NCBI RefSeq assembly: GCF_001697225.1 | Contig: NZ_CP014671.1 | Coordinates: forward strand, 2,294,001-2,358,000 | Reading direction: 5' to 3' | Length of the DNA stretch: 64,000 nucleotides | Source: Immundisolibacter cernigliae | Lineage (GTDB): Bacteria > Pseudomonadota > Gammaproteobacteria > Immundisolibacterales > Immundisolibacteraceae | Part shown: piece after piece, positions 10,711 through 55,702 of the stretch | Layout of the letters: each line of letters begins with the position of its first letter | Position numbering within the stretch: the first letter of the stretch is position 1 | The notes under the pieces: generated by a model | What the model was told of the DNA's origin: nothing | Seen by the model: the letters and a program-made list of their open reading frames with translations, nothing else | Databases searched by the model: none | Translations under genes and position numbers: made by a program

Positions 10711-13224
10711 TCAGGCCGCGCCTATTGCCGACTGCGGGATGCCCTCCAGCATCGATTCGATCGGTGCCGGCCGGCCAAGCAAAAAGCCCTGCCCGTAGTT
10801 GACGCCGATCGTGCGCAGCAGCTCCAGCGTCGCCGCGTCCTCGACGAACTCGGCGATGGTCTGAAAGCCCATGATGGTCGACAGCCGGTGGATGGCCTCC
10901 ACCATGGCGCGGTCGATCGGTTCGCGGGTGATGTCGCGCACGAAGCTGCCGTCCAGCTTCAGGTAATCCACCGGCAGATGCTTCAGGTAGGCGAACGACG
11001 ACACGCCGGTGCCAAAGTCGTCCAGCGCAAACAGACAGCCGGCGCCGCGCAGACGGTGGATGAACTCGCGCGTGCGGCCAAGATGGGCGACGGCGGTGGT
11101 CTCGGTCAGTTCCAGGCACAGCCGGCCGGACACATGGCCCGGATCGGCGAAGTAGCCCTCGATCATGCCGATCACGCCCGGGTCCTCCAGTGAGCGACCG
11201 GAAAGGTTCACCGACAGGCGCGCACCGGCGGCCCGGCCGCAGGCCAGCAGGTGCCCAATCGCGCGTGACACCACATAGCCGTCGATCAACGGCATCAGTC
11301 CGAAGCGTTCGGCGGCCGGCAGGAAGGCGCCCGGCAGCACGATGCGCCCGTCCCGCTGGCGCAGGCGCAGCAACACCTCGTACCACGGCGGCCCGTCGGC
11401 TTCGCCGAGCGCGCAGATCGGCTGCACGTACAGCAGCAGGCGCTGTTCATCCAGCGCGTCGCGCAGCTCGGTCGCCCACTGCATTTCGCTGCGGCGGCGC
11501 GCCAGGTCGGCATCACCGTGCCGGAACAGATGGATGCGGTTGCGCCCGAGGTCCTTGGCCGTGTAACAGGCAAGGTCCGCCTCGGTCAGCAGTTCGGCGG
11601 CCGATGCCGCGCCGGCGCTGACCGGCACCAGGCCCATGCTGGCGCCCACGGTGAAGCTGCGTTCCCCCCAGCGAAAGCGGAAATCGCCGATCGCGCCGAG
11701 CAAATCATGGGCGATCTGCGTCGCCTTGTCCGGCGGGCAGTCGGTCAGCAGCAAGCCGAATTCGTCGCCGCCGAGGCGCGCCAGCAGGTCACCGCGGCGG
11801 ATCCGGTGCTGCAGCAGGGTGGCCAGTTCGGCCAGCAGCTGGTCGCCGGCCGTGTGGCCGCAGCCGTCGTTGACCACCTTGAACTGGTCCAGATCCACGT
11901 AACACAGGGCATGCACGGCATCGGTCCGGCGCGCTTGCTCCAGCAGTTCGCCCAGCCGGTGTTCGAACTCGCGCCGGTTGGGCAGGCCGGTCAGCGGGTC
12001 GTGCCGCGCCTGGTGGGAGATCTCGTCCGCCAGGCGCCGGGTGTCGGTCACGTCGCGAAACACGATCACCGCGCCGGCCAGCGTGCCGTCGGGCAGATGA
12101 ATGGGCGCCGCCGAATCTTCCACTTGATACTCGACCCCGTCGCGGTTCAGCAGGACGGCGGTGCCCGGCAGGTCGATCGCCTGATCTTCGGCGATGCAGC
12201 GCAGCAGCGGATTGTCGACCGGCCGGCGGCTGTCTTCGTGCACCAGGCGAAACACCTCGCCGACCGGCCGGTCGAGGGCTTCGATCTGCGGCCAGCCGGT
12301 CAGGCGCTCGGCGATCGGGTTCAGCGCCGTAACGCGGCCCTCGGCATCGGTGGTGATGACGCCGTCGCCGATCGATTGCAACGTTACCCTGGCCAGCTCC
12401 TCGGCCCGGGCGAGCGTCTGTTCGGCGTGTTTGCGGTCAGTGATGTCGCGGCCGGAGAAATGCAGCACGCCCGTGCCCCAGGACGGCTGGATGGTCAGCG
12501 CCACGTCCAGCCAGAACGGCGTTCCGTCCAGGCGCAGCGAGTACCAGTCGAAGCGGGCAAAGCCCTTTTCCAGCGCCCGTTCGGACTCCATTCGCGAGCG
12601 ATCGACCGACGACCTGCCATCCGGCTGCACCGGCGGCGAGAAATCGAGCGGCGTGGCGCCGATCACCTGCGCCTTGTCGCTGGCGCCATACAGGCGCGCC
12701 AGATAGGCGTTGCAGTCGATGAAGCACGGCTCGCCACCGGCGATCGAGATGAAGCCGAAGGCATCCTCTGCGACCTCGAACAAATCGCGAAAGCGCGCCT
12801 CGCTGGTGGCCAGTTCGGCCTGGGTTTCGATCACGGCGCCGATGTCGCGGATGTGTACGCAGTACACATCCGGCGCAAGCGACGGCAGGGCCGTCAGTTC
12901 CACCTCGGCGCTCAGCCGTTTGCCGGCCGGGTCCAGAAACTCCCAGCGGGTCTTGGTACGGCCGGCACGCAGCGCCTCCCGATTGGCCGCAACGAAAGCG
13001 TGTTCCTGTTGCCCATCGAGCTGGGCCATGCGGGTCAGCGCGGCGGCGAATCGCGGCGCCGGATCGGCATCCTCCCGCATTCCCAGCAGGGTCGCGAAAG
13101 CGTCGTTCCAGCGCAGCAGGCGGATGTCCTGCAGGGTCACGCCGCGTGCGATCGCCACCGGGTCCGGGTTGCTGCGCAGCCAGTCGTCGAAGGCGGACGG
13201 TCCGGTGATGCAGGGTTTCTCCAT
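10711..13224 (-). CDS. PAS-GGDEF-EAL cyclic-di-GMP signalling protein
   Basis: 837 residues without membrane segments. Several PAS domains fill about residues 1-385 (including LFEVAEDAFGFIS and LQSIGDGVITTDAEGRV). GGDEF follows at about 395-555 with an intact RLGGDEF active site and an RxxD inhibitory site (RRGD) five residues upstream. EAL at about 570-825 is complete: the Glu of YEVLLR, SVNLS, LELTE, ALDDFGTG, LKLDGSF, the Glu of AEFVE and the Gln of YGQGF. Both synthesis and breakdown of cyclic di-GMP look possible, set by the PAS inputs. It converges with the EAL gene at 9435 and is separated from mutL by 233 bases in which I see no gene. Confidence 0.9.
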   Translation of the reverse strand: MEKPCITGPSAFDDWLRSNPDPVAIARGVTLQDIRLLRWNDAFATLLGMREDADPAPRFAAALTRMAQLDGQQEHAFVAANREALRAGRTKTRWEFLDPAGKRLSAEVELTALPSLAPDVYCVHIRDIGAVIETQAELATSEARFRDLFEVAEDAFGFISIAGGEPCFIDCNAYLARLYGASDKAQVIGATPLDFSPPVQPDGRSSVDRSRMESERALEKGFARFDWYSLRLDGTPFWLDVALTIQPSWGTGVLHFSGRDITDRKHAEQTLARAEELARVTLQSIGDGVITTDAEGRVTALNPIAERLTGWPQIEALDRPVGEVFRLVHEDSRRPVDNPLLRCIAEDQAIDLPGTAVLLNRDGVEYQVEDSAAPIHLPDGTLAGAVIVFRDVTDTRRLADEISHQARHDPLTGLPNRREFEHRLGELLEQARRTDAVHALCYVDLDQFKVVNDGCGHTAGDQLLAELATLLQHRIRRGDLLARLGGDEFGLLLTDCPPDKATQIAHDLLGAIGDFRFRWGERSFTVGASMGLVPVSAGAASAAELLTEADLACYTAKDLGRNRIHLFRHGDADLARRRSEMQWATELRDALDEQRLLLYVQPICALGEADGPPWYEVLLRLRQRDGRIVLPGAFLPAAERFGLMPLIDGYVVSRAIGHLLACGRAAGARLSVNLSGRSLEDPGVIGMIEGYFADPGHVSGRLCLELTETTAVAHLGRTREFIHRLRGAGCLFALDDFGTGVSSFAYLKHLPVDYLKLDGSFVRDITREPIDRAMVEAIHRLSTIMGFQTIAEFVEDAATLELLRTIGVNYGQGFLLGRPAPIESMLEGIPQSAIGAA

Positions 13225-47920: not shown

Positions 47921-48288
47921 ACGGCGCCGTGCTGGCGGCAGTCGCGCTCGGCGGCGCACTCGGCTCCGTGGCGCGCTATCTGGCGGTCAACGGCCTGGCC
48001 ACCTGGCTGGGCCGGGCCTTTCCCTACGGCACGCTGGCGGTGAACGTCGTCGGTTCGTTCCTGATGGGTCTGGCGCTGGCGCTGCTGGTGCAGCGCGGCC
48101 TGCTGGGCGAACCCTGGCGCGCCGGCCTGATGGTGGGCGTGCTGGGCGGCTTCACCACCTTTTCCGCCTTTGCCGGCGAGACGCTGCTGCTGGCCCAGCA
48201 GCGCCCGGCCGTCGCACTGCTCAACATCGGCCTGCACCTGACGCTGTGCCTGCTGGCGGTATGGGCAGGCGCCAGGGTCGCGGGCTGA
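47917..48288 (+). CDS. crcB: Fluoride ion channel CrcB/Fluc
   Basis: 123 residues with four membrane helices. GGALGSVARYLAV, TLAVNVVGSFLMG with the pore Asn, and GGFTTFSAFAGE with the central Na+/Phe-box motif. It exports fluoride as a dual-topology dimer. GTG 47917 overlaps the rarA TGA by 4 bases, so it is translated with rarA and has no separate fluoride riboswitch. The serS gene that often follows is absent. Confidence 0.94.
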   Translation: MNGAVLAAVALGGALGSVARYLAVNGLATWLGRAFPYGTLAVNVVGSFLMGLALALLVQRGLLGEPWRAGLMVGVLGGFTTFSAFAGETLLLAQQRPAVALLNIGLHLTLCLLAVWAGARVAG

Positions 48289-48460
48289 CCGGCGGTTACG
48301 AAAAAGCATCCATACCCATGCGCGTCGTGTTGACATTGACTCTCAAGTCGAGTGCCATGCGCTGACAATCCGGCTCCGGACGACGGCGCTGCGCGCCGAT
48401 CAGGCCCACGCACGGCCAACGGACCGCACGTACCCGCATCGGCTTTCGGGTGACAAAACA

Positions 48461-49801
48461 ATGAAGCTCGGTGGAGAACGCATGGCGCATGCAAGGGCCC
48501 GCAGCGGCCACACCTGGGGCATGGGAAGCCGTCATCCGGCAGTCCGTGCGCTGCTCGCGGTGACCCTGCTGGCCGCCTGCGCCGATACGGTTGGCTCCCC
48601 TGCCATCTCATGGCACGGCTTCGGAACCCTGGGCGCGGTCCGCTCCGACCAGGACCACTCCGACGTGATCTCCAACGTATTTCTGCAGCCCAACGGCGCC
48701 GGTCACACCCGCCGCTGGGACATGGGCGTGGACAGCAAGATCGGTGGACAACTGGATGCCCGCTTCAGCCCCGAGCTTTCCGCAGTCCTGCAAGTGGTCT
48801 CCAAACACCGCTACGACAATTCCTGGACGCCCGAGATCGAGTGGGCGAACGTGAAATATCAATTCACTCCCGCGTTCAGCGCCCGCCTGGGCCGCACCGT
48901 GGCGCCGATGTTCATGCGTTCCGACACGACGAACGTGGGTTACGCCAACCCATGGCTGCGCGGTCCCCAGGAAATCTACGGCATGGTCCCCATCACCCAT
49001 CTGGATGGGGTGGACCTGGCCTGGAATGTCCCGGTCGGTCCGGTCATGAATTCCTTTCAGGCCAATTTCGGATACAACCAATTCAAGGCCGTCGACGGCC
49101 TTGAAATAACCGGGAAACGCGCCTGGATCGTCAGCGACACGGTCGAGTACGAAAACCTGACGCTGCGTGTCAGTTATCTGGCCGTCGATCTCACGTTCGA
49201 CTCCACCGTTTTGGACAGCCTCCTCAACGGCCTGTCGGGCGCCGGCGATAACCTCGTCACGGCCGGCTTTCCCCTGGAAGGTGGCCGCGCGCGCTCGCTG
49301 GCCGGGCGTTACGACCTCGACGACACACCCCTTGAAATCTTCAGCGTCGGCGCCCGCTTCAATCCCGGAGACTGGCTGTTGATGGGTGAATGGGCGCGTC
49401 TGACCGATGCCGGCGTGCTGCCCAAGACGCAAGGCTGGTACGTGACGGGCGGCTACCACTTTGGCAAGACCAGGCCCTACGTCACAGTCGCCGAAGTCAA
49501 CGCCAGGACACCCTCGGAATCCGGAATACCGCTCGCCGGCTTGCCGCCGGGGCCGCTGTTGGATGGAGCGGGCGCGCTGAACGCCGCCCTGGGCTCGGCG
49601 CTCGGCGCCGCGGCGCCATCCCAGAAGAGCCTTACCCTGGGGCTTCGGTGGGATCTGCTGGACGCCGCCGCCCTGAAGTTCGAATACCAGCACATTCGCC
49701 TCGACGACCGGTCCGCCGGGCGCTTCGGCAACCTGCAGCCGGGGTTCCGGCCGGGGGGGAACGCGGATGTGTTCTCCATCGCCCTGGATTTCGTGTTCTG
49801 A
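48461..49801 (+). CDS. Outer-membrane porin-like protein
   Basis: 446 residues from ATG 48461. The signal region is late (RHPAVRALLAVTLLAACADT); LAAC resembles a lipobox, and ATG 48521 would give a normal signal length. The mature part reads as beta strands (FSPELSAVLQVVSKHRYD, LGRTVAPMFMRSDTTNVGYANPWLRGP, MNSFQANFGYNQF) and ends ALDFVF with terminal Phe, as porins do. Substrate unknown. With the next two genes it forms an apparent operon of porin, PstS-like protein and cyclic-di-GMP enzyme. Confidence 0.8.
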   Translation: MKLGGERMAHARARSGHTWGMGSRHPAVRALLAVTLLAACADTVGSPAISWHGFGTLGAVRSDQDHSDVISNVFLQPNGAGHTRRWDMGVDSKIGGQLDARFSPELSAVLQVVSKHRYDNSWTPEIEWANVKYQFTPAFSARLGRTVAPMFMRSDTTNVGYANPWLRGPQEIYGMVPITHLDGVDLAWNVPVGPVMNSFQANFGYNQFKAVDGLEITGKRAWIVSDTVEYENLTLRVSYLAVDLTFDSTVLDSLLNGLSGAGDNLVTAGFPLEGGRARSLAGRYDLDDTPLEIFSVGARFNPGDWLLMGEWARLTDAGVLPKTQGWYVTGGYHFGKTRPYVTVAEVNARTPSESGIPLAGLPPGPLLDGAGALNAALGSALGAAAPSQKSLTLGLRWDLLDAAALKFEYQHIRLDDRSAGRFGNLQPGFRPGGNADVFSIALDFVF

Positions 49802-49818
49802 GCGCGCCGGGGCTGCAA

Positions 49819-50250
49819 ATGCCGTTTTTTAAAGCCTCCGGGTTCCCCACGTTCGCCATGCTGCTCGCCCTTGCCGGCAATATCGCGGCAGCCGAGGTCG
49901 TCACTGTCGTTTCACCACAGAACCCCACCACCACGCTCAGCAGGCGCGAGGTGTCGAACATCTTTCTTGGCAAGATCAATCGCTTCCCAAACGGCCAGCC
50001 TGCGGTACCGATCGACCAGCCCGAAGATTCGCAGCAGCGAAAAGACTTTTACCGCGACGTCAGCAACAAACAACCGGCAGACATCAAGGCGTACTGGTCA
50101 CGGATGATCTTTACCGGACGGGGCCAGCCGCCCATGGTGGTCGAGGGCGACGAGCAGGTGAAGAAAAGCCTGGCCGGCCGGCCCGACGGTATCGGCTACA
50201 TCGACCGCGCCGCGGTGGACGACACCGTCAAGGTACTGGCCGTCCAGTAG
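49819..50250 (+). CDS. Small periplasmic PstS-like phosphate-binding domain protein
   Basis: 143 residues. Signal peptide (FPTFAMLLALAGNIAAAE), then a half-size PBP domain: VVSPQNPTTTLSRREVSNIFLGK, FPNGQPAVPID, DIKAYWSRMIFTGRGQPP and DGIGYIDRAAVDDTVKVL. This matches the short PstS-like proteins found beside sensor and cyclic-di-GMP genes. It is too short for a full transporter subunit, and no ABC genes follow, so a sensing role is more likely. 17 bases after the porin gene. Confidence 0.85.
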   Translation: MPFFKASGFPTFAMLLALAGNIAAAEVVTVVSPQNPTTTLSRREVSNIFLGKINRFPNGQPAVPIDQPEDSQQRKDFYRDVSNKQPADIKAYWSRMIFTGRGQPPMVVEGDEQVKKSLAGRPDGIGYIDRAAVDDTVKVLAVQ

Positions 50251-50281
50251 GCCGCAGCGCCATCACGTGGAACCTGACCGC

Positions 50282-52585
50282 ATGCGATTGAAGGAAGCGT
50301 CGAGGCGCCTGCTGCCGGCCTTGCGCCACGGGCTGAGCCGTGGCACGGAACCGGTGCTGCTGTTCCCCGGCCTGGCGATCCTGTTGCTGGGCATGTTGTG
50401 GATTGCAACGGCCAGCCTGGCACGCCAGGAATACGCCAATGCGCGCGCCACCGCCGTGCTCACCACCCGCGAGCTGGCCGAAACCTACGAAGCCCAGATC
50501 GTGCGTGCCCTGCGTGAAATCGACCGCACCCTGAAATGGGTCGCCTATACCCACGCATCGGACAACCACGAGTCCATCCTGGCCGAGCTCGGCAAGAAAG
50601 GCTTGTTGCTACCGGACTTTCTGTTCACGGTCAGCATCGCCGATGCCGACGGCAACGTCCGCGCCAGCACCCGGGTCGGCGGGCGCGCGAACATCGCCGG
50701 TACGGATTATTTCGAGGCACAGCGCACGCAGTCCGTGTTTGCGGTCGGCGCCCCGCAACCGAAGCCGCACTCGCGCGACTGGACCCTGTACTTCAGCCGG
50801 CGCCTGGACAAGCCCGACGGCAGCTTTGCCGGGGCAGTCGTCATTGCCGTGGACGCGGCCTACTTCGTCAGCGGATACGAGCAGGCAAAGCTGGGCCAGC
50901 GCGGCTTTCTTGGCCTGCTGGGTACGGATGGCGTCTTTCGGGTCGGTCGCAGTGGCCAAACCGTGGCCATCGGCGAGGTGGTCGACTACAAAAAAGTCGT
51001 TCCGGAAACCGAAGCCGACATCGACCTGACCCAGGTATCGCTGTCGGACAACAGCTGGGACGGGGTGCGGCGTTACACGGCAACGCGCGCCCTCTACGAG
51101 TTCCCGCTGGCCGTGGTCGTCGGCCTGTCGGAGGAAGAACGGTTACTGCCAGCCGCCGCCCAGGTGCGTGGCTATCTGCTGCGCAGCGCTGCCGCCAGCC
51201 TGGCGCTGCTCGCCCTCATGGCCGTACTCGGCCGCCTGAGCTGGCAGCTTCAGCAAAGCCGGCAACGCGCCGCGCAGGAGCATATCGAACACGCCAAGCG
51301 CATCGAGTACATCGCCCACCACGACAGCCTGACCGACCTGCCCAACCGCGGCTTTTTCAGCCACATGCTGAACCAGGTGCTGGCGCTGGCCAAACGCTAC
51401 AACCGCGAACTGGCGGTGCTGTTCCTGGACCTTGACCGCTTCAAGCTGATCAACGACACCCTGGGCCATGACGCCGGGGACGCGCTGTTGCAGGAGGTAG
51501 CCCGCCGCTTGACGGCCGCCGTACGTGAAAGCGACGTGGTGGCCCGGCTGGGCGGCGACGAGTTCATCGTCCTGCTGCCGGAGCAATGCGACGAAGCCAG
51601 CCTGGTGACCGTCGCGCAGCGGGTACTCGATTCGGTGGGCAAGCCGTATGACCTGCTCGGACATGAGTTTCGGATCACGGTCAGCATCGGCATCAGCCGC
51701 TATCCGCATGACGCCCAGGATGAACAGTCCCTGCTCAAGACGGCCGACATCGCGATGTACCGCGCCAAGGAAAAGGGCCGCAACAATTTTCACTTCTACT
51801 CCGGGGCCGAAAACACGACGACCCTTGAGCATCTGAGCCTGGAATCGGCGCTGCAACTGGCCCTGGAGCGGCAGGAGTTCAGCATCCACTATCAGAACCA
51901 GCTGGACCTGAACACCGGGCAGGTCACCGGCATGGAGGCACTGCTGCGCTGGAAGCATCCGCAGCTCGGGCTCGTCCTGCCGATGCAGTTCCTGCCGCTG
52001 GCCGAGGAAAGCGGGCTCATCGTGCCGATCGGCAAGTGGGTGATCGAGACCGCCTGCCGGGATTGCATAGCCATGCAGCAGGCAAGCGGGCGGCGACTGA
52101 CCGTGTCGGTCAACCTCTCGGCCCGGCAGTTTGCCGACGACAACCTCGCCCGCGACCTTGAAGCCATCCTGCAAAGGACCGGCATCGAGCCGGGCCTGCT
52201 GGAGCTGGGCGTCACCGAAAGCGTGCTGCTGACTGACGTCTACCGGGCGGTGGCGATACTCGGCGACCTCAGGGCGCTGGGCGTGCGGGTGGCCATCGAC
52301 AATTTCGGGGCCAGCTACTCGTCCCTGTCGACGCTGCGCCGGTTCCGCTTCGACACCGTCAACATCGACGGCAGCGTCATTCGTGATTACGCGCACAGCC
52401 CGGAGGACCGGAAATTGACCGAGGCGACCATCGCCATGGGCAAGGACCTGGCCTTCACCGTGGTGGCCGAGGGTGTGGAAACGGAGGATCAGGCGCAGTT
52501 CCTGCGCGCCGCGGCCTGCGACAAGGCCCAGGGTTTCTATTTCGGGCGCCCGGCACCGCACGATTCGGCGCAGTCGACGCCGTAG
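50282..52585 (+). CDS. Membrane sensor GGDEF-EAL protein with degenerate EAL
   Basis: 767 residues from ATG 50282 (GTG 50267 possible). Membrane helix near 22-45, a periplasmic Cache-like sensor, second helix near 295-318 (SAAASLALLALMAVLG), GGDEF at about 345-505 with intact RLGGDEF and RxxD (RESD), and EAL at about 520-765. In EAL the Glu of MEALLRW, Asn of SVNLS, Glu of AEGVE and Gln of KAQGF remain. The metal Glu is G643 (LELGVTE), the second Asp of DDFG is N674 (IDNFGAS), and the catalytic Lys is N694 (TVNIDGS). It is thus predicted to make cyclic di-GMP but not to break it down. Confidence 0.9.
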   Translation: MRLKEASRRLLPALRHGLSRGTEPVLLFPGLAILLLGMLWIATASLARQEYANARATAVLTTRELAETYEAQIVRALREIDRTLKWVAYTHASDNHESILAELGKKGLLLPDFLFTVSIADADGNVRASTRVGGRANIAGTDYFEAQRTQSVFAVGAPQPKPHSRDWTLYFSRRLDKPDGSFAGAVVIAVDAAYFVSGYEQAKLGQRGFLGLLGTDGVFRVGRSGQTVAIGEVVDYKKVVPETEADIDLTQVSLSDNSWDGVRRYTATRALYEFPLAVVVGLSEEERLLPAAAQVRGYLLRSAAASLALLALMAVLGRLSWQLQQSRQRAAQEHIEHAKRIEYIAHHDSLTDLPNRGFFSHMLNQVLALAKRYNRELAVLFLDLDRFKLINDTLGHDAGDALLQEVARRLTAAVRESDVVARLGGDEFIVLLPEQCDEASLVTVAQRVLDSVGKPYDLLGHEFRITVSIGISRYPHDAQDEQSLLKTADIAMYRAKEKGRNNFHFYSGAENTTTLEHLSLESALQLALERQEFSIHYQNQLDLNTGQVTGMEALLRWKHPQLGLVLPMQFLPLAEESGLIVPIGKWVIETACRDCIAMQQASGRRLTVSVNLSARQFADDNLARDLEAILQRTGIEPGLLELGVTESVLLTDVYRAVAILGDLRALGVRVAIDNFGASYSSLSTLRRFRFDTVNIDGSVIRDYAHSPEDRKLTEATIAMGKDLAFTVVAEGVETEDQAQFLRAAACDKAQGFYFGRPAPHDSAQSTP

Positions 52586-52618
52586 ACGGCGCGCCGGTCC
52601 GGGGCGGCGTCGGAAAAC

Positions 52619-52665
52619 TGTGGGAGCCCGGCTGTGCCGGGCGGTCATCGCGCAGCGAGGCTGCG
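52619..52665. repeat. REP-like repeat
   Basis: CTGTGGGAGCCCGGCTGTGC, CGGGCGGTCATC and then CGCAGCGAGGCTGCG. The clearest copy of the dispersed family, between the GGDEF-EAL and M14 genes. Confidence 0.65.
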
Positions 52666-52748
52666 TTTGTATCCGGGTTTTTCCATGGCGGGCGCCAGCT
52701 TGGCGGACGGGGCACCTGGCCGCCCCACCGCGCGGGGTCATCAACTGC

Positions 52749-54260
52749 ATGCACAGGATTCTGGATGCCTCCAAGGCGCTGCTGCTGACGGCTTTGATCG
52801 GCACCGCAGCCTGCGCCGAAACACCGCCGACGCCGCTGGAAGCGGCCGGCTACAGCCGCCACAGCACGTCCGAAGAAGTCTCGGCCTACCTCGCTACGCT
52901 GGTCGCGCGCGCTCCCGCCCTGGCGCGCACGGAGGTGCTCGGGCGCAGCGTGCAGGGCCGGCCGATCGAAGCGCTGGTGCTCACGGCGCCGACGGCGGAG
53001 GCGGGCGCGCCGCGACTGAAGGTGCTGCTGGTCGGTTCCCAGCACGGCGGCGCCGAGCCGGCCGGTGGCGAGGCGCTGCTGGCCATTGCGCGCGACCTGA
53101 CCGAGGGCGACCTGCGTCCGCTGCTGGACGACCTGGACGTCGTGCTGATCCCGAACGCCAACCCCGACGGGCGCGATCTGCGGCGCCGCGCGAACGCCAA
53201 CCGGGTCAACATCAACACCGATTTCGTGCTGTTGTCCCAACCGGAGAGCCGCGCCCTGGCGCAGGCTCTGACCCGCTACGCGCCGCACGCCGTGCTCGAC
53301 ACCCACGAGTCGGCAGTGCTCAAGCGCACCACGCTGGCGCGCGAGGGCTGCCTCACCGATTTCGACGCCCAGTTCGAGATCGCCAACAACCCGGCGCAAC
53401 CGGCCGGCCTGCGGGCCTTCGCGCAAGACCAGGTTCTGCCGGCGCTGCTCGCGCGGGTGTCGGCCGCCGGCCTGCCGGCGAATCACTACATCGGCGAGAT
53501 CGTCAGCACCCGCCAGCCGATCAGCAACGGCGGCCTTACGCTGCGCAATTTTCGAAACACTGCCGGCCTGGGCGGCGCGCTGTCGGTGCTGGTGGAAACC
53601 CGGCTCGACCCGCGCCACGACCGGTTTGCGAGCTATCGCAACATCGCCGTGCGCGTGCAGCGGCAACTGCTGTGCATCCGCAGTTTCCTGGCCGAGGTGC
53701 ACGCGCGACGGGCGGCCATCCTGGCGCACACCGCTGCCGCTCGGACTGCGCTGAAGCCGCCCGTGCTGACGCTGTTTGCCGGCTACGCGGCGGACCCGGA
53801 TCACCCGACCGTCACCCTGCCGCTGCGCCGGCTGGACACGCGCACGCTGGAGCCGATCCGCTTTGCCGATCATCGCCGGGTGGTGACGGCCGACACTGTT
53901 CCCTATCCGGCGGCGCTGGTGGTGACCGACCACACCGACCGCCTGCGCGAGCTACTCGATCACCACGGCATCCAGTACACGACGCTGATGCAGCCGACGC
54001 GCCTGGCGGTAGTCGCCACGCGCTTTGCGGCGCGCCCGGGGCGGACCGATCGGGTGCCCGCCCAGCCGAGTGGGCGCACGTCGCTGACCGTCAAAGCCGG
54101 CGGCCTGGTCATCGATCTGGCACAGCCCGGCGGCCGCAAGGCGCTGCTGCTGCTGGACCCGCGCTCGACCAGCAGCGTGTTCCGCTACCCGGACTACGCC
54201 GCGCTGGTGACGCCGGCCGCCGATTTTTTCGTCTATCACGCGCCTGACGGGGCGCCGTGA
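52749..54260 (+). CDS. M14-type metallocarboxypeptidase, exported
   Basis: 503 residues. Signal peptide (ALLLTALIGTAACAE). Zinc-site candidates are GSQHGGAEPAGGEALL (H-x3-E, one residue longer than the classic H-x2-E), VLDTHES as the third ligand, and the Glu of VLVETRLD as catalytic acid. IPNANPDGRD and NRVNINTDFV match M14 proteins acting on peptides or cell-wall fragments. The C terminus has DPRSTSSVFRYPDYA. It is directly followed, with one shared base, by a paralogue lacking a signal peptide. Confidence 0.85.
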   Translation: MHRILDASKALLLTALIGTAACAETPPTPLEAAGYSRHSTSEEVSAYLATLVARAPALARTEVLGRSVQGRPIEALVLTAPTAEAGAPRLKVLLVGSQHGGAEPAGGEALLAIARDLTEGDLRPLLDDLDVVLIPNANPDGRDLRRRANANRVNINTDFVLLSQPESRALAQALTRYAPHAVLDTHESAVLKRTTLAREGCLTDFDAQFEIANNPAQPAGLRAFAQDQVLPALLARVSAAGLPANHYIGEIVSTRQPISNGGLTLRNFRNTAGLGGALSVLVETRLDPRHDRFASYRNIAVRVQRQLLCIRSFLAEVHARRAAILAHTAAARTALKPPVLTLFAGYAADPDHPTVTLPLRRLDTRTLEPIRFADHRRVVTADTVPYPAALVVTDHTDRLRELLDHHGIQYTTLMQPTRLAVVATRFAARPGRTDRVPAQPSGRTSLTVKAGGLVIDLAQPGGRKALLLLDPRSTSSVFRYPDYAALVTPAADFFVYHAPDGAP

Positions 54261-55702
54261 TGCCGCTGCCGACGCCGCTGGAAGCGCAGGCCTTCGGGCG
54301 CTATTCGGACAGCGCCCAAATCGCCGCTTATCTGCGTGCGCTGGCCGTTGCCAGCGGCGGGACCGCGGTGTTCGGCTGCGCCGGACACTCCGCGCTGGGG
54401 CGCGAAATTCCGGTCCTGACCTGCGGCGTGGCCGACCCGGCACGCGTCGAGGACGGCAAGCTGCGCCTGCTGCTGGTCGGCTCCGTGCACGGCGCCTCCG
54501 AGGCCGCCGGCTGCGAGGCACTGCTGTGCCTGGCGCGGTCGGTACTGCTGGGCGAGCTGCGCGAGCTGCTGGACGTATTCGAGCTGGTGCTGATCCCGAA
54601 CGCCAACCCCGACGGGCGGGACGCGGACTCGTTTCGCAACGGCAACCGGGTCAACATCAACCGCGATTTCGTTCTGCTCGAACAGCCCGAAAGCCGGGCG
54701 CTGGATGCCGCCGTGCGCCGCTACGCGCCGGCGGTGGTGCTGGATGCCCATGAATCGGCGGTCCTGAAGCGCAGGACGCTCGGCCAGGAAGGCTACCTGA
54801 CGGCCTTCGAGGCGCAGTTCGATGTCGCCAGCACGCCCGCCATCCCGGCCGCGCTGCGCGATTTCGCGACCGATACGCTGCTGCCGCAACTGATCGCCGG
54901 CGTGCAGGCGCGCGGCCTGCATGCGCAGCGCTACATTGCCGAGATCCGCTCGGTCAGCCAGCCGATCACGCACGGCGGCCTGACGCTGCGCATGTTCCGC
55001 AACAAGGCCGGCCTGCGCGGGCCGCTGACGGTGCTCCTCGAAACACCGATGGAACCGAAGGCCGGGCAGTACGCGACCTACCGCGACATCGGCCCGCGCG
55101 TGCACAAGCAACTGCTGTGCATGCGGGTGTTTCTGGACTGCGTCCGCGCCAGCGCGCCGGCCATCCGGGCGGCGCAGGCGCGCGCAGCGCTGGAACTGGA
55201 CCAGCCAACCTGCGCCCTGAACGGCAGCTACCTGCGCGAGCCACCGGATGCCGCCATCACGTTGCCGCTGCGCGAACGCGCCAGCGGCACGCGGGTCCAG
55301 TCCACGTTTGCCGACCACCGCACGGTGATCGCGCAAGACACGCTGCGCATTCCACCGCATTACTTCGTCACCGAACACACCGAGGTGTTCGCCGAGCTGC
55401 TGGCGCGCCACGGGGCGGCCTTCGAAAGGCTCGCTCAGGCCATCGAGGCACCGGTGATGAGCGAGGTGTTCGCCGGTGGCGGCAATCCCGAGGCGGCCTG
55501 CCAGCGGATCGACGAACTCACGCACCGCCGCCTCATCCCGGCCGGTGCCCTGCGCGTGCCACTATCGGGCAGCAACCGGCGCCTGGTGCCCTTGCTGCTG
55601 GAGCCGCGCTCGACCAGCAGCGTGTTTCGCTATCCGGCGTTTGCCGGCCTGCTGCAGCATGGGCGGCCGTTCTTCATCCCGCGCGGCGTGGACGAGAACT
55701 GA
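54260..55702 (+). CDS. M14-type metallocarboxypeptidase, cytoplasmic paralogue
   Basis: 480 residues from ATG 54260, sharing the A of the previous TGA; GTG 54257 is an alternative. Same layout as the upstream gene: GSVHGASEAAGCEALL (again H-x3-E), IPNANPDGRD, NRVNINRDFV, VLDAHESAVLKR, VLLETPMEPK and EPRSTSSVFRYPAFA. No signal peptide, so it should stay in the cytoplasm. A duplicate pair in two compartments could process the same substrate before and after uptake; that is inference. Confidence 0.85.
   Translation: MPLPTPLEAQAFGRYSDSAQIAAYLRALAVASGGTAVFGCAGHSALGREIPVLTCGVADPARVEDGKLRLLLVGSVHGASEAAGCEALLCLARSVLLGELRELLDVFELVLIPNANPDGRDADSFRNGNRVNINRDFVLLEQPESRALDAAVRRYAPAVVLDAHESAVLKRRTLGQEGYLTAFEAQFDVASTPAIPAALRDFATDTLLPQLIAGVQARGLHAQRYIAEIRSVSQPITHGGLTLRMFRNKAGLRGPLTVLLETPMEPKAGQYATYRDIGPRVHKQLLCMRVFLDCVRASAPAIRAAQARAALELDQPTCALNGSYLREPPDAAITLPLRERASGTRVQSTFADHRTVIAQDTLRIPPHYFVTEHTEVFAELLARHGAAFERLAQAIEAPVMSEVFAGGGNPEAACQRIDELTHRRLIPAGALRVPLSGSNRRLVPLLLEPRSTSSVFRYPAFAGLLQHGRPFFIPRGVDEN

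Follow-up and report, generated by a model that had tools for sequence, protein, structure and literature searches.

In a 64,000-nucleotide stretch of the Immundisolibacter cernigliae genome (the window; contig NZ_CP014671.1, positions 2,294,001 to 2,358,000), three consecutive genes (the triad) encode a porin, a secreted half-size PstS-like protein (half-PstS) and a trans-membrane Cache-GGDEF-EAL protein. We found that the porin and half-PstS genes are a conserved pair and that this pair often stands beside a sensor gene, an arrangement that suggests a largely overlooked route for signals across the cell envelope. The reading we favour, with a probability of roughly 0.55, is that porin and half-PstS are a dedicated input module of the envelope and cooperate with an adjacent trans-membrane receptor. 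A preliminary description of the window, made from its letters only, had proposed that the triad acts as one unit and forms a signalling line from the outer membrane to cyclic-di-GMP (c-di-GMP). The genomic comparisons agree with such a line in outline, the triad being one instance of a porin/half-PstS/receptor module of wider scope. The output, however, is not always c-di-GMP: beside the pair, chemoreceptors were twice as common as GGDEF-EAL proteins.

The conserved pair and the receptors beside it

We scored a half-PstS gene as paired when a porin gene lay on the same strand within 350 bp, with loose gene calling. By this rule, 84 of the 93 half-PstS genes in 80 named loci, which are the best of 323 and share one search motif, were adjoined by a porin gene. 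Pairing was likewise found for 36 of 45 half-PstS genes in relatives without loci L033 and L056 (37 of 48 with both) and in all eight plasmid loci, and the median gap between the two genes was 11 bases (77 pairs). The nine exceptions among the named loci were second copies behind a porin/half-PstS pair (L095, L105, L106 and L140), genes in contig-end loci (two in L107, one in L141) and genes in loci where no porin was detected (L124 and L138). A porin profile applied to 95 genomes (E 1e-10) had a match in 21 of the 27 genomes with half-PstS and in 0 of the 68 without (Fisher p 5e-16), with the reservation that the profile was built from paired porins and so favours them. Since the porins of other genomes stayed below the profile threshold, the paired porins form a distinct subfamily. 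When coordinates were compared, roughly 3 of 40 porin positions, all in a single genome (G017), had no half-PstS gene next to them.

In L071, L157, L114, L137 and L144, two or three porin/half-PstS pairs stand in tandem, and genomes G017 and G111 carry eight or more half-PstS genes each. In L078, on the Alteromonas mediterranea plasmid MRG65-300, a half-PstS/porin pair in reversed order lies beside a type IV CRISPR (csf) locus.

The triad itself was compared with two congeners. In G001 the whole region is collinear with the window, with the same gene order and 93.8% DNA identity. In G002, 176 bp stand where the window has 4,535: the blastn blocks stop at 48288, which is the stop of CrcB, and resume at 52824, and the flanking genes RarA, CrcB, M14 peptidase (named by eye) and aldo/keto reductase are kept. 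No match to the half-PstS, the sensor region or the porin subfamily was found elsewhere in G002, an assembly of 330 contigs that is 95% complete. In addition, the guanine-plus-cytosine (GC) content of the three triad genes is 61-65%, versus 70-73% in the flanking genes. Given the empty site and the lower GC content, the triad is a discrete unit that behaves as a gained or lost cassette, as the proposal of one unit implied. The three open reading frames (ORFs) indeed follow one another in a single run on the + strand of a one-contig, 3.24 Mb genome, with 17 bases between the porin stop (49801) and the half-PstS ATG (49819), and with 16 or 31 bases between the half-PstS stop (50250) and the third start (GTG 50267 or ATG 50282, respectively).

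Three unrelated genes that are neighbours by chance would fit one observation: no promoter-like site was found and terminator-like sites were not above chance level, so co-transcription is not shown. For porin and half-PstS, however, chance is contradicted by the conservation of the pair, and the shared order and identity in G001 together with the empty site in G002 indicate that the arrangement of the triad is more than chance. With the recurring receptor neighbours described below, we consider such an accident very improbable.

Receptor genes were called by home-made profiles and patterns and counted as adjacent if no more than 400 bp separated them from the module. A receptor adjoined the pair in 34 of the 80 named loci, comprising 21 methyl-accepting chemotaxis proteins (MCPs), 10 GGDEF-EAL proteins, two histidine kinases and one GGDEF plus histidine kinase case; the corresponding counts were 19 of 44 loci in relatives, window and G001 included, and 7 of 8 plasmid loci. 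In the named loci, the flanks (about 149 slots) held 35 receptor genes, versus 13 in the 498 kb lying beyond 1.5 kb, and the relatives held 2 in 304 kb beyond that distance. Note that near/far densities (22- to 85-fold) overstate the effect because almost every 400-bp flank contains one gene; per gene, the enrichment beside the pair in the named loci was about nine-fold, one gene per kb being assumed. Pfam confirmed all 20 receptors submitted (10 MCPs, 8 GGDEF-EAL proteins and 2 kinases), and the kinase-type calls in L036, L083 and L125, which come from the home-made profiles and patterns only, are putative. Conservation, the main test set for the earlier idea, was passed in a wider form: the first two genes of the triad are conserved as a pair, and the third gene varies. 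The order of the window (porin, half-PstS, GGDEF-EAL on one strand) recurs in Caballeronia plasmids and in 5 of the 80 named loci (L086, L103, L108, L127 and L146). The GGDEF-EAL gene is convergent to the pair in L084, L085, L087 and L088, and more distant members (L042, L045, L048, L049, L050 and L177) show a second order, half-PstS, porin, GGDEF(-EAL).

Cyclase or kinase genes adjoin the pair in some loci scored as receptor-less (class-III cyclase in L151, protein kinase in L156, histidine kinases in L096, L098 and L102), so that 34 of 80 is a lower bound. The pair could instead be an uptake device, in which a solute let in by the porin is handed by half-PstS to an unlinked transporter or retained in the periplasm, and in which receptors lie nearby because uptake of a solute and behaviour toward it are regulated together; the 46 named loci without an adjacent receptor, and receptor genes that sometimes lie upstream or on the other strand, would suit this explanation. 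However, the 25 most frequent of the 69 Pfam families in the neighbours of receptor-less pairs (65 of 73 proteins) included no transporter family, although one P-type ATPase was seen, and the small protein lacks half of the PstS binding cleft, so we regard uptake as unlikely.

Two proteins in which the half-PstS domain is fused to other domains (L172:2731-4437, +, and L173:6240-8264, -; genomes G218 and G185) bear on where the lobe works. Each has a J-like domain, one trans-membrane helix, a long proline/glutamate-rich linker (226 or 333 residues) and a C-terminal half-PstS domain, and the porin gene follows after 35 or 25 bases. A Pfam DnaJ match was obtained for one of the two J-like domains, and the HPD motif was not seen by eye. 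This is the build of a periplasm-spanning protein, which argues that the place of work of the lobe would be the periplasmic face of the porin. Apparent half-PstS fusions in G558 and G651 (frames of 324-708 amino acids) were rejected as porin DNA read in another frame; those in G218 and G185 stand because they have a J-like domain, helix and linker of their own. Separately, L175:136-2658 and L174:2079-4676 encode PstS-type sensor kinases, in which a full-length PBP_like_2 domain is fused to PAS, histidine kinase and receiver domains.

The fusions could also be read as signs of a structural or assembly partner of the porin (a gate, plug or folding helper) that makes no direct contact with receptors. 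The almost one-to-one pairing and the co-occurrence with the porin subfamily point the same way, as does the correlation between porin and half-PstS distances (Spearman 0.62 over 123 pairs and 0.66 over 29 within-genome or within-locus paralogue comparisons), with the reservation that kinship alone could yield the full-set value and that the 29 comparisons are few and partly from tandem copies. On the other hand, receptor genes are some nine times commoner per gene beside the pair than further away, and this role is also at odds with the tandem loci L114 and L134, where the half-PstS proteins are alike (71-82%) but the porins are not (23-25%). We therefore hold this role to be rather improbable.

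The three proteins of the window

The porin (446 residues) matched Porin_4 of Pfam at 35.0 bits, above the cut-off of 27. Its model is a predicted 16-stranded barrel (predicted local distance difference test score, pLDDT, 84; predicted template modelling score, pTM, 0.83), and porins head its structural matches. Alignment of 48 of the 74 selected porins with the window porin (49 rows) gave a family signature, VGYAxPWxRPPxExY, near residues 159-173, which reads VGYANPWLRGPQEIY in the window. The window porin had no match to Porin_O_P (PF07396), to which 4 of the 49 family members matched weakly, and the porin profile had no match among sequences of the PDB. The signal region is lipobox-like in the window porin (LLAAC) and in that of G001 (LLAGC), a feature absent in most relatives compared.

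By eye, the start of half-PstS resembles a signal peptide. The protein matched PBP_like_2 (PF12849) just under the cut-off (25.6 vs 27 bits) and only over profile positions 89-189 of 267, and its score against TIGR02136 of NCBIfam (21.4 bits) was below the curated threshold of 206.6. The AlphaFold model had a pLDDT of 89.1 and a pTM of 0.77, with block means of at least 95 over residues 31-140, and PstS structures were its best structural matches: residues 23-143 superposed on residues 77-188 of 4q8r (Z 15.8; root-mean-square deviation 1.5 over 106 residues) and also matched residues 75-210 of E. coli PstS (1pbp). The template modelling score was 0.65 by query (TMq) versus 0.37 by target (TMt), and the two-lobed PstS fold is not reached. 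As modelled, half-PstS is lobe II of PstS alone, with lobe I absent, and the earlier wording 'half-size' proved literal: one lobe of two. The observation that the protein has no transporter partners also held, as pstCAB was not recognised among the ORFs neighbouring the triad when their translations were read by eye. A full-length PstS-type gene lies elsewhere in the host genome, at G000:C1:1864523.

In PstS, the loop (S)RxDGSGT binds phosphate. When a profile of 81 half-PstS members was aligned with solved PstS proteins, the family had Gln at the place of the loop arginine; the G and T of SGT are variable and G-S is mostly kept, so the loop motif does not occur as such. Phosphate, put forward earlier as a candidate ligand, is thus unsupported, because both lobe I and the loop arginine are missing. 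Public plasmid records label such genes 'phosphate ABC transporter substrate-binding protein' (ABC, ATP-binding cassette) or 'hypothetical protein'; the transporter label misleads, since the arginine and one lobe are missing and it is a porin, rather than a transporter, that constantly accompanies these proteins.

The half-PstS hallmark is KxYWSxxxFTGxGxPP, and F77, Y92, W93, F98 and G100 were invariant in all 81 rows of the alignment (80 of the 93 half-PstS proteins plus the window sequence). A truncated pseudogene was ruled out, since proteins of equally half size that share invariant residues make up an entire family. In a tree of these 81 sequences the window protein was unplaced, on a long branch (1.14), and receptor types clustered, with 5 changes versus a shuffled mean of 12.3. 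A nucleotide search of E. coli genomes with one Caballeronia half-PstS gene gave no match. Weak profile matches (E above about 1e-6) were set aside as mostly full-length PstS, judging by the open frames; the sensor kinases of L174 and L175 are the two such matches that were inspected. Long half-PstS ORFs in the window (286 residues), L037, L077, L080 and L108 were set aside as run-ons from the first start that overlap the porin.

The third protein had been described as a c-di-GMP enzyme with a Cache sensor, which was borne out, with the amendment that it carries an EAL domain besides GGDEF. Both domains matched Pfam far above the cut-off. The dCache_1 match was below the cut-off (34.8 vs 45), and the sensor region matched 3lif, a solved domain of a putative diguanylate cyclase that we take to be of dCache type, at E 2.4e-13. 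The GGDEF motif and RxxD site are intact (RESDVVARLGGDEF). In the EAL domain, by contrast, the conserved catalytic set (ExL, N, E, DD, K, ExxE) is incomplete: in both the window and G001, DDFG has become DNFG, with N for the second D, and LKID has become VNID, with N for K. That lysine and the second D matter for phosphodiesterase activity. The window retains the first E of ExxE, which is Q in four near relatives (AEGVE to AQGVE in L084, L085, L087 and L088); because this change differs from that of the window, loss of EAL activity may have occurred repeatedly within this receptor group. Alanine at the same E is reported to have abolished the phosphodiesterase activity of TBD1265 (PMC12943098). 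Caballeronia relatives (L076 and L108) have intact EAL residues at the compared positions. With catalytic residues lost in EAL and an intact GGDEF, the enzyme of the window most likely acts as a cyclase whose EAL domain does not hydrolyse, and c-di-GMP synthesis is its probable output.

Known systems and the proposed mechanism

Two known systems resemble the proposed relay. In phosphate chemotaxis of Pseudomonas aeruginosa, Pi-loaded PstS binds CtpL (PMC4926252); there, as proposed here, a PstS-type periplasmic protein feeds a trans-membrane receptor, and an MCP adjoins half-PstS in 21 of the 80 named loci. Unlike half-PstS, that PstS is full-length, binds phosphate and is part of an ABC transporter, and no porin pair is described in the abstract of PMC4926252. 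In Vibrio cholerae, NspS drives MbaA (PMC8967002), again a periplasmic binding protein acting on a GGDEF-EAL receptor; NspS binds polyamines and MbaA is bifunctional, whereas the system here has one PstS lobe and a changed EAL domain. The word porin is absent from PMC8967002. A co-encoded trans-membrane receptor, the mark of receptors driven by binding proteins, was found in the 34 named loci and in the window.

On the outer-membrane side, the window porin resembles the phosphate-selective porins OprP and OprO in its 16-stranded barrel, with OprP (2o4v) among the structural matches, but differs from them in having no Porin_O_P match. TonB-type proteins span the periplasm, and the two fusion proteins share with them a trans-membrane helix, a long proline/glutamate-rich linker, a C-terminal periplasmic domain and an adjacent outer-membrane barrel gene; unlike in TonB, the end domain is a PstS lobe, and the usual half-PstS, including that of the window, is a free secreted protein. 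OmpS of Alcanivorax dieselolei is, like the porin here, an outer-membrane protein. It is said to trigger a chemotaxis response in alkane sensing (PMC6304351), but is described there as related to TonB-dependent receptors, whereas the system here has a 16-stranded porin and a half-PstS. In the open-access PMC literature (subscription papers and preprints being outside this scope), no description of a porin/half-PstS/receptor module was found.

We propose the following mechanism, modelled on the relays from PstS to CtpL and from NspS to MbaA. A specific solute would enter via the porin; half-PstS would dock at the periplasmic side of the porin and/or relay the presence of the solute to the sensor domain of the receptor. 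By analogy with these systems, half-PstS would be a natural carrier from porin to receptor. In the window the receptor would be the Cache-GGDEF-EAL protein, its output c-di-GMP synthesis, and its EAL domain a c-di-GMP-binding or structural part. A solute may be bound by two copies of the lobe together or by the lobe on the porin; alternatively, the lobe may bind no solute and signal the porin's state. We infer the contacts of half-PstS with porin and receptor, the transfer of or dependence on a ligand, and the direction of the output.

Several points weigh against an input module. In 46 of 80 named loci our rule found no adjacent receptor, so porin and half-PstS may have an independent role. 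The sensor domains of the receptors differ (dCache-like, CHASE8 and unassigned), so a common docking surface is not obvious, and no receptor-half-PstS fusion was found. Furthermore, half-PstS may bind no ligand, because a single lobe cannot form the usual two-lobed cleft. A broader form of the input-module reading, which we offer tentatively and hold to be doubtful, is a general module in which a dedicated porin would sense or admit a solute, and porin occupancy would be read out in the cytoplasm via a docked PstS lobe, by now free of any transporter, and whichever receptor is adjacent (chemoreceptor, c-di-GMP enzyme or histidine kinase), with the lobe tethered to the inner membrane through a periplasm-spanning linker in some lineages. 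The half-PstS family offers a genetic handle on how receptors of the inner membrane are informed of what is present at the outer membrane. It also points to tests for many chemoreceptors and c-di-GMP enzymes without known ligands.

Feature coordinates and other genes of the window

The features of the triad are collected in Table 1.

Table 1. Features of the triad and its surroundings, in window coordinates.
Feature	Position	Strand	Evidence
Porin, distinct subfamily	48461..49801	+	Pfam, predicted structure, family alignment
Secreted half-PstS (predicted lobe II only), 143 residues	49819..50250	+	Pfam, predicted structure
Half-PstS residues 66-77, DQPEDSQQRKDF, place of the PstS phosphate loop, Gln for Arg	50014..50049	+	
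Half-PstS residues 86-105, hallmark KxYWSxxxFTGxGxPP	50074..50133	+	Family alignment
Trans-membrane Cache-GGDEF-EAL protein, 772 residues from GTG; ATG at 50282 possible	50267..52585	+	
Periplasmic dCache-like sensor region, residues 72-235	50480..50971	+	
GGDEF domain, GGDEF motif and RxxD site intact	51314..51787	+	
EAL domain, catalytic positions changed (DDFG to DNFG, LKID to VNID, LELE to LELG)	51848..52552	+	
Stretch absent from congener G002, between crcB and the M14 peptidase gene	48289..52823	+	

Downstream of the triad, two tandem M14-type peptidase genes occupy 52473-55702 of the window; their products are 48% identical, and one match was found in G002. A second GGDEF domain protein of the window lies at 11536-12009 (-), and the genome has 13 GGDEF matches in all.

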